DNA from: Ruegeria sp. AD91A
GTDB lineage: Bacteria; Pseudomonadota; Alphaproteobacteria; Rhodobacterales; Rhodobacteraceae
Length of the DNA: 64,000 nucleotides
Direction: 5' to 3'
Assembly (NCBI RefSeq): GCF_003443535.1
Contig: NZ_CP031946.1
Coordinates: 3,598,297-3,662,296 of the forward strand
In this document: positions 8,541-13,841 of the stretch, in pieces
Layout: every line of letters starts with the position of its first letter
How positions within the stretch are numbered: position 1 is the stretch's first letter
The notes under the pieces: generated by a model
What the model was told of the DNA's origin: nothing
The model's input: only the letters and a program-made list of their open reading frames with translations
The model's database searches: none
Position numbers and translations under genes: made by a program

Positions 8541-9503
8541 TTAGCTGCTCGCCGCAATCAGTTCGGCCTGTGCCACAATGACTTCGGCCTGCTTGATTGA
8601 GGCGATGTCGACAAGACGTCCTTTGTAGACGGTCGCGCCTTCACCGTTGGCTTTGGCCTGTTCCATTGCGGCCAGGATTTCGCGGGCCTCAGAAACGGCC
8701 TCATCCGACGGGGTAAAGACCTGATTGGCCAGTGCGATCTGCTTGGGATGGATCGCCCATTTGCCGACCATACCAAGTGTGGCCGAGCGTTTCGCCTGAG
8801 CGATGTACCCTTCATCATCGCTGAAATCCCCGAATGGTCCATCCACTGGCAACACCCCATGGGTGCGGCAGGCCGCAACGATGGCGGCTTGGGCCCAGTG
8901 CCAGGGATCGGACCAGTGTTTTTCACCCTCGCGCAGCATGTAATAGTTTTCCTGTGTGCCGCCGATGCCCGTGGTCTGCATTCCCATCGAGGCGGCAAAA
9001 TCTGCGGCCCCAAGGCTCATGGCCTGCAAACGGGGTGAGGAGGCTGCGATCTCTTCCACATGCGCGATACCGGCAGCGGATTCGATAATGACCTCGAAGC
9101 TGATCGGTTTGGTCCGGCCCTTGGCGCGTTCAATGGCGGTGACAAGGGCATCCACGGCATAGACATCTGATGCACAACCGACTTTGGGAATCATGATCTG
9201 GTCCAGACGGTCGCCTGCCTGCTCCAACACGTCGACAACGTCACGATACCAATAGGGGGTATCCAATCCGTTGATGCGAACGGACATGTATTTATTGCCC
9301 CAATCAACAGTATTCAGCGCTTCGATGACGTTGGCGCGGGCTACATCCTTGTCCGAAGGCGCAACCGAATCCTCAAGGTCAAGGTTGATCACATCCGCAG
9401 CAGAAGCTGCCATTTTCGGGAACAGTTTGGTATTCGACCCCGGACCAAACAGTTGACAGCGATTGGGTCGTGCAGGCGCGGCGGGTTGGATGCGAAAGCT
9501 CAT
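8541..9503 (-). CDS. mcl1: L-malyl-CoA/beta-methylmalyl-CoA lyase
   Basis: Mcl1 cleaves beta-methylmalyl-CoA to propionyl-CoA and glyoxylate and interconverts L-malyl-CoA with acetyl-CoA and glyoxylate, in the ethylmalonyl-CoA pathway of Rhodobacterales. The sequence matches the CitE-like TIM barrel: FGPGSNTKLFPKMAASAADVINLDLEDSV (metal/substrate region), VRINGLDTP, the FEVIIESAAGIAH glutamate, and GKWAIHPKQI at the C-terminus. I chose ATG 9503 (MSFRIQPAAPARPNRCQLF), preceded by AGGTCC, giving 320 residues, the size of the characterised enzyme; upstream in-frame ATGs lack conservation. The promoter region contains TTGCGCAA-type sites. Confidence 0.95.
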   Translation of the reverse strand: MSFRIQPAAPARPNRCQLFGPGSNTKLFPKMAASAADVINLDLEDSVAPSDKDVARANVIEALNTVDWGNKYMSVRINGLDTPYWYRDVVDVLEQAGDRLDQIMIPKVGCASDVYAVDALVTAIERAKGRTKPISFEVIIESAAGIAHVEEIAASSPRLQAMSLGAADFAASMGMQTTGIGGTQENYYMLREGEKHWSDPWHWAQAAIVAACRTHGVLPVDGPFGDFSDDEGYIAQAKRSATLGMVGKWAIHPKQIALANQVFTPSDEAVSEAREILAAMEQAKANGEGATVYKGRLVDIASIKQAEVIVAQAELIAASS

Positions 9504-9679: not shown

Positions 9680-9798
9680 GCGTCATCCCGCACAAGAGCG
9701 CAAGAACATCGCGCGTTAGCTGTGTTTGACGGAGCAGAACGCGAAACGCTCGTTTTGCCGCTTCACTAGCTTAGGCCGGAATCAAAGGAGTGACCGCA

Positions 9799-10800
9799 AT
9801 GATCGAGACACCGTACCTGCTGTTTTTGGGCGATGCGCCCGACCAATTGGCGGCCAAAGTGGCTGTGGGCATCAAGGATTGGCGCCCGGAAAACGCCGTC
9901 GGCCAATACCGTATGGACGGCTGCAAGGCCGATCTGGGCCTGACCGATATGACCCTGACAGAGGCGAAAGAGGCCGGTGCCAAAACGCTGGTCATCGGCG
10001 TGGCCAACCGTGGGGGCGTGATCAGCCAGGAATGGAAAAAGGTTCTGGTCATGGCACTGGAGGAAGGGTTTGACCTTGCCTCCGGCTTGCACAACCTGTT
10101 GCGCGATGAACCTGACCTGGTGGCGGTGGCCGAAGCGACCGGTCAAAAGCTGCACGACGTGCGTGTGCCCGAAGTCGATTACCCGATTGCCAACGGGATC
10201 AAGCGCAAGGGCAAGCGTTGTCTGGCCGTGGGCACCGATTGTTCGGTCGGCAAGATGTACACCGCAATGGCGATGGATGCTGAAATGCGCAAGCGTGGTA
10301 TGAAGTCGACCTTCCGCGCGACTGGTCAGACGGGCATCCTGATCACCGGCGATGGTGTGCCGCTGGACGCCGTAGTCGCGGATTTCATGGCGGGCTCAAT
10401 CGAATGGCTGACACCTGACAACGACGACGATCACTGGGACCTGATCGAAGGCCAGGGCTCATTGTTCCATGTATCCTATTCCGGTGTGACCATGGCACTG
10501 ATCCACGGCGGCCAGCCGGACGCCCTGATCCTGAGCCATGAACCGACCCGTGAGCACATGCGCGGTCTGCCGACCTATCAGCAACCGTCTTTGGAAACCC
10601 TGCGCGACACCGCGCTGGCCCTGGCCAAAGTGGCGAATCCCGATTGTCAGGTCGTCGGCGTTTCCGTCAACACGCAGCACCTGTCCGAAGATGACGCGAC
10701 GGCGTATCTGGCCAAGATCGAAGCAGACATGGGGCTGCCTGCGACCGATCCGTTCCGCTTTGGTTCAGGCAAGCTGGTGGACGCGCTGGCTGCGATGTGA
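9799..10800 (+). CDS. dgcN: DUF1611 protein, probable D-glutamate N-acetyltransferase (DgcN type)
   Basis: Length 333. The N-terminal Rossmann-like half (IETPYLLFLGDAPDQLAAKVAVGI) and C-terminal P-loop half define DUF1611. The P-loop GTDCSVGK (residues 145-152) resembles dethiobiotin synthetase. A DUF1611 protein, DgcN, has been described in marine Pseudoalteromonas as acetylating D-glutamate, acting with the racemase DgcA encoded beside it. The same two genes are adjacent here, followed by a D-amino-acid transaminase, which supports the assignment. Start ATG 9799 has AAAGGAG eight bases upstream. In the absence of assay the function is by family and neighbourhood. Confidence 0.8.
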   Translation: MIETPYLLFLGDAPDQLAAKVAVGIKDWRPENAVGQYRMDGCKADLGLTDMTLTEAKEAGAKTLVIGVANRGGVISQEWKKVLVMALEEGFDLASGLHNLLRDEPDLVAVAEATGQKLHDVRVPEVDYPIANGIKRKGKRCLAVGTDCSVGKMYTAMAMDAEMRKRGMKSTFRATGQTGILITGDGVPLDAVVADFMAGSIEWLTPDNDDDHWDLIEGQGSLFHVSYSGVTMALIHGGQPDALILSHEPTREHMRGLPTYQQPSLETLRDTALALAKVANPDCQVVGVSVNTQHLSEDDATAYLAKIEADMGLPATDPFRFGSGKLVDALAAM

Positions 10801-10872
10801 TCTGAGACACGTGCCGGTGGCGGGTTCAACCGCTTCCGGCGTTAGATTTGGAAAAGATGAAGGAGCGGGTGC

Positions 10873-11838
10873 GTGCGGATAGAGGTCTCTCGCGATGTGT
10901 TTCGGCTGGCGCAGGTGTTTACCATCTCGCGCGGGTCACGGACCGAGGCAAAAGTGCTGACGGTTCGGGTGTCGGACGGAACGCATCAGGGCTGGGGTGA
11001 ATGCGTTCCCTATGCGCGTTATGACGAAACGCTCGAGTCGGTTGAGGCCGAGATTGCCGGCTTGCCTGCGGAGTTCACCCGCCAGTCGCTGATGGACCTA
11101 CTGCCTGCTGGTGCCGCCCGGAACGCCGTGGATTGCGCCTTGTGGGATCTGGAAAGCAAGCGCGCGGGAAAGCGTGCCTGGGATTTGGCGGGTCTGCCTG
11201 TTCCGGGACCAGAGATCACCGCATACACTTTGTCGCTGGACACGCCCGCGGCGATGCAGGCCCAGGCGGCCGAGAACGCGCATCGCCCGCTTCTGAAAAT
11301 CAAACTGGGCACCCCAGATGACATGCCGCGGCTTGAGGCGGTGCGGGCCGGTGCTCCGAATGCCAAGATCATCGTGGATGCGAACGAAGGCTGGTCGGCC
11401 GAGGTTTACGCCGACCTCGCCCCTCATCTGGTACGTTTGGGCGTGGCACTGGTCGAGCAACCCTTGCCCGCCGGGGACGACGACGCATTAATCGGAATGG
11501 ACCGCCCGGTGCCCGTCTGCGCTGACGAGTCCTGCCATGATCGCGCCAGCCTGTCCGGGCTGATGGGCAAATACGATATCATCAACATCAAACTCGACAA
11601 GACCGGTGGCCTGACCGAGGCACTGGAACTTCGCAAAGCCGCAATCGCGGAAGGGTATGACATCATGGTCGGCTGTATGGTTGGCAGCTCGCTTGCCATG
11701 GCACCCGCGACACTGTTGGCGCAGGGTGCGATGGTGACGGACCTTGACGGCCCGCTTCTGTTAGCCGAAGACCGCGACACCCCGCTGATTTTTGACGACA
11801 CCGGAGTTCACCCGCCAGAAGCGGCGCTCTGGGGCTGA
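10873..11838 (+). CDS. dgcA: Enolase-superfamily epimerase, probable N-acetyl-D-glutamate racemase (DgcA type)
   Basis: A 321-residue muconate-lactonising-subgroup enzyme of the dipeptide-epimerase type. Visible catalytic elements are the KxK pair K142/K144, metal ligands D169 (VDANEGW), E195 (EQPLP) and D218 (ADES), and the opposing base K240 (NIKLDKTGG). These residues suit 1,1-proton transfer on acyl amino acids. Often annotated L-Ala-D/L-Glu epimerase; adjacency to the DUF1611 gene makes N-acetyl-D-glutamate the more likely substrate. The start is GTG 10873 with GGAG upstream. It ends 10 bases before the transaminase gene, so they form one operon. Confidence 0.82.
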   Translation: MRIEVSRDVFRLAQVFTISRGSRTEAKVLTVRVSDGTHQGWGECVPYARYDETLESVEAEIAGLPAEFTRQSLMDLLPAGAARNAVDCALWDLESKRAGKRAWDLAGLPVPGPEITAYTLSLDTPAAMQAQAAENAHRPLLKIKLGTPDDMPRLEAVRAGAPNAKIIVDANEGWSAEVYADLAPHLVRLGVALVEQPLPAGDDDALIGMDRPVPVCADESCHDRASLSGLMGKYDIINIKLDKTGGLTEALELRKAAIAEGYDIMVGCMVGSSLAMAPATLLAQGAMVTDLDGPLLLAEDRDTPLIFDDTGVHPPEAALWG

Positions 11839-11848
11839 GGAGACAAAC

Positions 11849-12709
11849 ATGACCCGAACCGTATACGTAAATGGCGAATACCTGCCCGAGACCGAGGCCA
11901 AGGTATCCATCTTTGACCGTGGCTTCCTGTTTGCTGATGCGGTTTACGAAGTGACCAGTGTATTGGATGGCAAGCTGATTGATTTCGAAGGTCACGCAGT
12001 GCGCCTGAAGCGGTCTCTGGATGAGCTGGAGATGGCCGAGCCCTGCACCAAGGAAGAGCTGCTGGAGATCCACCGCAAGCTGGTTGATCTGAACGGCATC
12101 GAAGAGGGCCTGATCTACCTGCAGGTCTCGCGCGGCAGTGACGGTGACCGGGATTTTGTCTTCCCTTCGGCAGATACCAAACCCAGCCTCGTTCTGTTCA
12201 CGCAGAACAAGCCCGGGCTGGCTGACAGTCCGGCAGCACAGAAAGGTGCCAGGATCATCTCGATCGAGGACATCCGCTGGGGCCGCCGCGACATCAAAAC
12301 CGTGCAGCTGCTTTACCCTTCGATGGGCAAGATGATGGCCAAGAAAGCGGGCTGTGATGATGCATGGCTGGTCGAAGACGGCTTTGTGACCGAAGGCACC
12401 AGCAACAACGCCTATTTCGTCAAGAACGGCAAGATCGTGACCCGCCCGCTGTCCAACGACATCCTGCACGGGATCACCCGCAAGGCCGTGCTGCGCCTGG
12501 CGGCCGAAGCGCAGATGGAAGTTGAAGAACGTCTGTTTACCATCGACGAAGCCAGGGAGGCTGACGAGGCGTTCACAACTTCGGCCAGCGCATTCGTGAT
12601 GCCCGTCGTGGAAATCGACGGAGTCGCGCTGGGTGATGGTACACCCGGGCCGATTGCCAAACGCCTTCGTGAAATTTACCTGGATGAAAGCCGAAAGGCC
12701 GCGATCTGA
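11849..12709 (+). CDS. dat: D-amino-acid transaminase
   Basis: A class IV PLP transaminase of 286 residues. RTVYVNGEYLPETEAKVSIFDRGFLFADAVYEV is the fold IV entry; catalytic lysine is K150 (RRDIKTVQLL); EGTSNNAYFV binds the PLP phosphate. Family members move amino groups between D-alanine, D-glutamate, D-aspartate and 2-oxo acids. Start ATG 11849 follows GAGGAG. Placed last in the operon with the two D-glutamate genes, it would collect amino groups from D-alanine onto 2-oxoglutarate, giving D-glutamate and pyruvate. Direction in the cell is inferred. Confidence 0.9.
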   Translation: MTRTVYVNGEYLPETEAKVSIFDRGFLFADAVYEVTSVLDGKLIDFEGHAVRLKRSLDELEMAEPCTKEELLEIHRKLVDLNGIEEGLIYLQVSRGSDGDRDFVFPSADTKPSLVLFTQNKPGLADSPAAQKGARIISIEDIRWGRRDIKTVQLLYPSMGKMMAKKAGCDDAWLVEDGFVTEGTSNNAYFVKNGKIVTRPLSNDILHGITRKAVLRLAAEAQMEVEERLFTIDEAREADEAFTTSASAFVMPVVEIDGVALGDGTPGPIAKRLREIYLDESRKAAI

Positions 12710-12938: not shown

Positions 12939-13841
12939 TTACCCGACTTTGAAAGGGCTCAGGCTTTCCTGAAACTGTTCAATGAATTCAAGTGTCACCA
13001 ACGACGGTTGCTTCAATATTGGGCGTACCAACGAGAGAGTATGTGTCAGCAATGGCCTGAATGGCCGATAACTCAATCCCCGTGAGGTGTATTGGACGGC
13101 ATCCAGTTCGCTTACGACCGAGACACCGACACCTTTCAGCGCCAATTCACATGCCGCTGTGAACTGCCTGACCTCAATATGCGAGTTCAATTCGACATTG
13201 GCATTTTGAAACACTTTCGAAAGCCGCCCGAAAAAGTCGCTGTCGCGTCGGGTGTGGATGATTTTGCTGTGTGCAAGATCCGCCGGGGTAACTTCGGAAA
13301 GGCCTTCCAACTCGTGCCCGGTGGGGAACACGCACACCGTGCGAACGTCGATGTTTCTGCTTTCTACCGCCGGATGACCGTGAAAACTGTCTGTGATTCC
13401 GAAATCATACTGCTCGCCAATCATCCATTCGAGAATGCGTTCAGGTCTGTCAGGCTCGATCGTCAGGGTGACACCGGGCCGATCCTTCAAGAAGCTGGCG
13501 ACGACTTTGGGCAAATGGCTGGTGGCAAATCCAGGTAGGCAGGCGACACGGATGTGCCCTGCTTTGCGTTGTGTGATATCCTGGCTGACATCCGAGATTT
13601 GCCTCATGAGTTCGAGAACGCGCTCGACGCTGGGCAAGAGGTAACGAACCTCCTGCGTTGGCACCAATCGGCCCTCCCGGCGATCAAAAAGCTGAAACCC
13701 AAGCGATTTTTCTAGATCAGACAGCAGCCTGCTGACAGCTGGCTGGGTCACTCCAAGATCGGTCGCAGCGGCTGTGACAGACCCGTTTTTGGTCACGGCC
13801 ATTAGGGCCTCCAATTGCCGCACTCTCAGAATTTGACTCAT
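12939..13841 (-). CDS. LysR-type transcriptional regulator
   Basis: Residues 1-62 hold the LysR winged helix (RQLEALMAVTKNGSVTAAATDLGVTQPAVSRLLSDLEKSLG), and the rest is the two-lobed inducer domain. It lies between two modules: convergent with the D-amino-acid transaminase (230 bases) and divergent from ugpB (172 bases). By position it most likely regulates ugpBAECQ, but a role over the upstream D-glutamate genes is possible because the known dgc regulator is also of LysR type. A perfect ATAACA-CTA-TGTTAT dyad lies just upstream of its start. Confidence 0.92.
   Translation of the reverse strand: MSQILRVRQLEALMAVTKNGSVTAAATDLGVTQPAVSRLLSDLEKSLGFQLFDRREGRLVPTQEVRYLLPSVERVLELMRQISDVSQDITQRKAGHIRVACLPGFATSHLPKVVASFLKDRPGVTLTIEPDRPERILEWMIGEQYDFGITDSFHGHPAVESRNIDVRTVCVFPTGHELEGLSEVTPADLAHSKIIHTRRDSDFFGRLSKVFQNANVELNSHIEVRQFTAACELALKGVGVSVVSELDAVQYTSRGLSYRPFRPLLTHTLSLVRPILKQPSLVTLEFIEQFQESLSPFKVG

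Follow-up and report, generated by a model that had tools for sequence, protein, structure and literature searches.

The dgcN–dgcA pair and a D-amino-acid transaminase gene in Ruegeria sp. AD91A: a lineage-specific variant of a known D-glutamate pathway

Related systems

A D-glutamate (D-Glu) pathway formed by the enzymes DgcN and DgcA was reportedly described in its original form from Pseudoalteromonas, in the ISME J, and a regulator, DgcR, is said to be present in the Pseudoalteromonas model strain. The locus analysed here, positions 9799–12709 of a 64 000 nucleotide stretch of the Ruegeria sp. AD91A genome (hereafter the window; C1:3598297-3662296 of a two-contig, 4.4-Mb genome), carries dgcN and dgcA followed by dat, a gene for a D-amino-acid transaminase (DAT). 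This operon probably serves the disposal of D-Glu, with DAT draining other D-amino acids into the same route and DgcA having an extra, DgcN-independent use. The pathway is a known one that the locus represents in a lineage-specific form, and the roles of DgcA and DAT in it constitute a testable puzzle. Observed directly were the content and order of the genes, their conservation, their restriction to a lineage and the nested pattern of retention.

Two articles treat dgcN as a known D-Glu gene (PMC12363236, PMC10845958), and the second presents peptidoglycan, with its D-alanine (D-Ala) and D-Glu, as an important part of marine refractory organic matter (PMC10845958). In another Rhodobacteraceae strain, which grows on D-Glu and D-Ala, a D-amino-acid transaminase, a D-glutamate N-acetyltransferase and an N-acetyl-D-glutamate racemase have been named; the accessible part of that article describes neither mutants nor a single operon for these three activities (PMC11747546). 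Ruegeria proteins are already named DgcA in the databases, and the name N-acetyl-D-Glu racemase is now listed for many such proteins. The pathway itself is already known, and the new part is comparative: the attachment of DAT in this lineage and the nested retention of the genes. The literature searched, which left most subscription papers out of reach, gave no account of DAT joining the pair or of a dgcA that stands without dgcN.

As in Pseudoalteromonas, the genes of the two pathway enzymes are adjacent, both proteins exceed their equivalog cut-offs and the structure of a DgcN homologue has been solved. Unlike in Pseudoalteromonas, a DAT gene occupies the third position of the operon, and no regulator is evidently linked.

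The operon and its products

The three open reading frames (ORFs) are intact and co-directional on the plus strand: dgcN (9799..10800; 333 aa, ATG start at 9799, with a second possible start at the in-frame GTG at 9790), dgcA (10873..11838; 321 aa, GTG start at 10873) and dat (11849..12709; 286 aa, ATG start at 11849, preceded by GGAG at 11839-11842). The spacing is 72 bp between dgcN and dgcA and 10 bp between dgcA and dat, and the three genes are presumably co-transcribed. Each product exceeds an NCBIfam cut-off, which bears out the original prediction of tightly spaced DgcN, DgcA and D-amino-acid transaminase genes. The GC-rich stretch between dgcN and dgcA (10801..10872, plus strand) folds into a hairpin (-23.9 kcal/mol) that is weak when compared with mononucleotide shuffles in the window (z -1.6). 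Hairpin folds are also found in this gap in many of the relatives shown, with varied sequence.

DgcN, a DUF1611-type protein, scores 562.4 bits against the NCBIfam model NF041892 (residues 5-330; equivalog cut-off 480) and contains the DUF1611 domains PF07755 and PF17396 of Pfam. It can be aligned without gaps, over residues 1-332 and with 622.8 bits, to the Protein Data Bank (PDB) entry 7xrj, entitled 'crystal structure of N-acetyltransferase DgcN-25328'; because of this full-length match, the case for DgcN as a predicted D-Glu N-acetyltransferase is strong. The predicted model of DgcN is modest (predicted local distance difference test, pLDDT, 72.2), and the structural match leans on the sequence match. 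All of the ten named matches that rank highest, with 93-98% identity, come from Ruegeria.

DgcA, a putative N-acetyl-D-Glu racemase of the enolase superfamily, is above the equivalog cut-off of NCBIfam NF042940 (499.5 bits versus 400) and below that of the L-Ala-D/L-Glu epimerase model PRK15129 (300.9 bits versus 343). The family cut-offs and the solved DgcN homologue support the conversion of D-Glu into N-acetyl-L-Glu that had been proposed for DgcN and DgcA. The protein resembles the Escherichia coli L-Ala-D/L-Glu epimerase YcjG (PDB 1jpd) in its fold and in the aligned lysine motifs and DLDGP; we take the lysine motifs and DxD to be the catalytic motifs of epimerases. Unlike YcjG, which is a neighbour of the murein amidase MpaA, DgcA does not reach the epimerase cut-off, and there is neither an MpaA-like nor any other murein-peptide gene in the window's operon.

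DAT is a class-IV transaminase that exceeds the cut-off of the D-amino-acid transaminase subfamily NF005209/PRK06680 (385 bits versus 320) and also matches PF01063 of Pfam; its substrates are predicted to be D-amino acids. It belongs to the same family as the Bacillus-type enzyme DAAT (PDB 1daa, 3lqs), with which the catalytic Lys, the Glu and the first carboxylate-binding Arg align. Residues R101 and F103 are identical in all of the 104 loci with at least 55% identity (window's copy included).

Conservation among relatives and in other families

Eighty loci from named genomes were picked by the closeness of their DgcN to that of the window (84-98%), a choice that says little on distant kin. 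The order dgcN-dgcA-dat is found in 75 of them. A strain named Ruegeria pomeroyi (L053) carries the trio with 0.9 kb between dgcA and dat. The remaining five hold too little sequence to decide: it stops about 50 bp past dgcN in L062 and L088, within dgcA in L064 and L076, and 754 bp past dgcA in L106, where dat could still lie beyond. Because the order recurs in 75 of the 80 loci, the trio is no chance arrangement. A gene for an aldolase of the HpcH/HpaI type is present upstream of dgcN, also in 75 of the 80.

Within the window's order, DgcN exceeds its cut-off in 161 of 196 genomes. Among 115 genomes drawn from across the class, almost every one from a different family, it does so in 29, two of which belong to the window's family. 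The 28 other-family loci analysed comprise the 27 above the cut-off and one just under it (G285); a weak partial match (G258) was left out. In 26 of these 28 loci dgcA adjoins dgcN (within about 450 bp), and the two others lie at a contig end (L178) or have no dgcA match (L201). DAT exceeds its cut-off somewhere in 24 of the 28 genomes and stands next to dgcN-dgcA in one (G259). On these comparisons, dat looks like a lineage addition behind an older dgcN-dgcA pair.

The surroundings of DAT were taken from 20 of these 24 genomes. In 17 of them the gene lies between genes of the NtrX and HflX types, accompanied by a TrkA-type gene in 14 and by an Hfq-type gene in eight, ORFs under 90 aa being unlisted, which hides many Hfq genes; the gene types of the site were identified by NCBIfam for one representative each. 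A DAT at the ntrX-hfq-hflX site is already known for Sinorhizobium meliloti (SMc01047; PMC2848018). The hfq-linked and the operon DATs both fall under NF005209/PRK06680, but in a tree of 38 rows the 17 hfq-linked proteins are split (100/99) from the operon DATs and three others; they carry R-x-H in 16 of 17 cases, versus R-x-F in the operon-side DATs shown, and occupy a different site. The window's genome has its own NtrY-like/NtrX/TrkA/Hfq/HflX row, in which no DAT match was found. The transfer of an hfq-linked DAT into the operon was rejected: since the two groups stand apart on the tree, a distinct subfamily is likelier than relocation.

A cluster of related ORFs occurs near dgcN-dgcA in seven of the 28 other-family loci; the one member scanned (L175:3043-4833) is a gamma-glutamyltranspeptidase, which is a possible source of D-Glu.

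Nested retention in 45 genomes

Retention was compared in 45 genomes: 20 of the 161 above the DgcN cut-off, 20 of the 29 without a match and five of the six with a match under the cut-off. DgcA exceeds its cut-off in all 20 genomes with DgcN, in eight of the 20 without it and in one of the five with a weak match (G127, whose contig starts about 300 bp ahead of dgcA). The aldolase gene is directly upstream of the orphan dgcA in seven of the eight genomes (not in G018), 152-243 bp away or, in G047, 781 bp; in G156 its match is split in two pieces. The DAT gene follows closely in seven, and 1.3 kb further on in G132. No convincing remnant of dgcN was detected, the matches being limited to 13-21 residues at E-values of 0.1-0.4. 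Elsewhere the aldolase gene stands beside dat alone (G006), dat is preceded by a fossil comprising 33 residues of the DgcA end (G057), or dat lacks both dgcA and the aldolase gene in its vicinity (G058 and G173). On a DAT tree of 65 rows (every third named locus and further genomes), the state of dgcA without dgcN requires six changes, and at least four if starred branches alone are counted; dropping G127 leaves the counts of 9, 6 and 8 changes unaltered.

Because eight of the 20 dgcN-less genomes retain dgcA, it is probable that DgcA serves a further purpose that does not depend on DgcN, the simplest candidate being L-Ala-D/L-Glu epimerization. These genomes offer a natural test of whether DgcA is solely an N-acetyl-D-Glu racemase. 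Stepwise-looking losses such as the fossil in G057 would also fit an orphan dgcA that is a functionless leftover on its way to disappearance, which we regard as rather unlikely: the eight orphan ORFs, from eight genus groups, are intact and retain the lysine motifs (K-I/V-K-L and N-I/L-K-L-D-K) and DLD, one having DLDAP instead of DLDGP. The ratio of non-synonymous to synonymous substitution rates (dN/dS) points the same way: four pairs that include an orphan DgcA gave 0.19-0.26 (a fifth is saturated) and five control pairs gave 0.07-0.37 (one more being saturated), although the pairs are few and dS is high throughout.

Proposed function

In the scheme that we prefer, DgcN would acetylate D-Glu with acetyl-CoA, and DgcA would invert the alpha-carbon of the resulting N-acetyl-D-Glu, giving N-acetyl-L-Glu. 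An unlinked deacylase, for which an ArgE-type protein is a candidate, would release L-Glu, or the enzymes of arginine synthesis would take the N-acetyl-L-Glu. DAT, which would have joined the older dgcN-dgcA pair in the window's lineage, would carry out amino-group exchange of 2-oxoglutarate with D-Ala or another D-amino acid, the D-Glu so formed entering the same drain. In genomes without DgcN, DgcA would most likely epimerize L-Ala-D-Glu from cell-wall recycling. We infer each of these reactions, and the direction of DAT, from the sequences. If DAT feeds the route, several D-amino acids would be handled by one operon and the use of D-Ala would be predictable from gene order.

Several observations weigh against this scheme. 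The DLD motif is common to DgcA and YcjG and, like the lysine motifs, is not diagnostic; it does not discriminate between racemase and epimerase activity. NlpC/P60 proteins, rejected as an uninformative marker of the epimerase role, occur in all 45 genomes and do not track with dgcA. DAT remains under the cut-off of the D_amino_aminoT equivalog TIGR01121 (241.9 versus 277.45). It also differs from the Bacillus-type DAAT in the carboxylate-binding set, which we take to be Tyr-Arg-His (with the numbering Arg98-x-His100): Tyr and Arg are retained, and Phe occupies the His position two past the Arg in every one of the 104 loci. The DAT cut-off is exceeded in 45 of the 45 genomes, with or without dgcN or dgcA, and the main job of DAT may therefore lie outside D-Glu catabolism. 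Finally, dgcA and dat are 0.56-1.07 kb apart in 24 of the 75 loci with the conserved order, with intervening genes in most of those examined; co-transcription is therefore not general.

The action of DgcA on dipeptides, which the original prediction had set against itself, is alive because dgcA is kept without dgcN and because the solved structures nearest to DgcA are dipeptide-epimerase-like. A stronger version would make DgcA chiefly an L-Ala-D/L-Glu epimerase of murein-peptide recycling, its partnership with DgcN being secondary. The orphan genes, seven of them beside the same aldolase gene, would agree with such a role, as would the nearness of DgcA to dipeptide epimerases, by sequence and by fold, and its score with PRK15129. 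We nevertheless think it unlikely, given that the DgcA model is above its cut-off and the epimerase model below, that DgcA accompanies DgcN in every DgcN-positive genome tested, that the pair adjoins in nearly all other-family loci and that the window's operon lacks murein-peptide genes.

The feeding of the D-Glu route by DAT, as originally suggested, is plausible by family and is the weakest step of our preferred scheme; its ubiquity regardless of dgcN and dgcA and the absence of one canonical carboxylate-binding residue speak against it, and DAT is more than a mere feeder. Its persistence even after the loss of both other genes could reflect the reverse role, in which it would use D-Ala and 2-oxoglutarate to supply peptidoglycan with D-Glu while dgcN-dgcA drain the surplus, the operon levelling D-Glu. 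This we find unlikely: a glutamate-racemase match is present in 44 of the 45 genomes (the cut-off is reached in nine, and the match in the window's genome scores 142.1 versus 146.65), and DAT is therefore not obviously needed for D-Glu; moreover, co-expression of a source and a drain would be futile unless regulated. The exception favours D-Glu levelling: G141, a single-contig genome of the window's family, carries dgcN-dgcA-dat (L167, G141:C1:2945000-2958000) and has no glutamate-racemase match at an E-value of 0.001. In this genome DAT may be the source of D-Glu for peptidoglycan.

A broader form of the D-Glu disposal scheme, which we advance tentatively and hold to be doubtful, is a nested module in Rhodobacteraceae, in which the R-x-F DAT, a distinct transaminase subfamily, is always kept, a DgcA acting both as N-acetyl-D-Glu racemase and as L-Ala-D/L-Glu epimerase is often kept and DgcN forms an outer step that can be dispensed with. 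A single operon would then lead free D-Glu, murein dipeptides and D-Ala to L-Glu, and from the losses at its front one could read the entry route still in use in each lineage.

Fate of N-acetyl-L-Glu

The original prediction of a complete pathway in one operon was too strong, as no transporter, peptidase or deacetylase gene is present within the window's operon. The search that it recommended for a deacetylase elsewhere in the genome did yield a candidate: an ArgE-type protein encoded at C1:394945-395889 (TIGR01892, 387.4 versus a cut-off of 297.7). Its gene adjoins those of three M20 amidohydrolases, making four M20-family hydrolases in a row (G000:C1:394945-399453; L151, L146, L148 and L145). 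An ArgJ gene is found at C1:3004756-3005925; both it and the ArgE-type gene are unlinked to the operon. N-acetyl-L-Glu could possibly be converted to L-Glu, or enter arginine synthesis, via these proteins.

In three of the 28 other-family loci a gene of the N-formylglutamate amidohydrolase family (L195:2251-3135, scanned; also L191 and L193) lies within 5 kb of dgcN-dgcA. Its product could be an N-acyl-Glu deacylase.

Flanking and inserted genes

The divergent gene upstream of dgcN (8541..9503, minus strand) belongs to the HpcH/HpaI aldolase/citrate-lyase family (PF03328, 136.8 bits), and its product reaches no NCBIfam cut-off. It is outside the pathway and is a marker of the conserved site. 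Downstream of dat, a LysR gene on the opposite strand (12939-13841) is followed by UgpB-type ABC genes; both look separate from the operon. The LysR protein was rejected as an operon regulator, since its gene diverges from the UgpB-type genes, and no LysR match of at least 50% identity was found across the 80 relatives' loci.

The inserts between dgcA and dat were inspected in 16 of the 24 loci whose gap exceeds 500 bp, and ten inserted ORFs were scanned with Pfam. One each proved to be a metallophosphoesterase, an isochorismatase-type protein, an M23 peptidase and a YdcZ exporter (on the opposite strand); the other six had no family over its Pfam cut-off. The idea that the dgcA-dat gap conceals a deacetylase gene was rejected, none being found among the ORFs of the 16 gaps. 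Recurring kinds of insert, judged by eye, are shared by L066, L082, L091 and L095, by L085, L087 and L097, and by L052 and L056. The insert that encodes the M23-type peptidase comes from a Roseovarius metagenome-assembled genome (L098:10078-11043).
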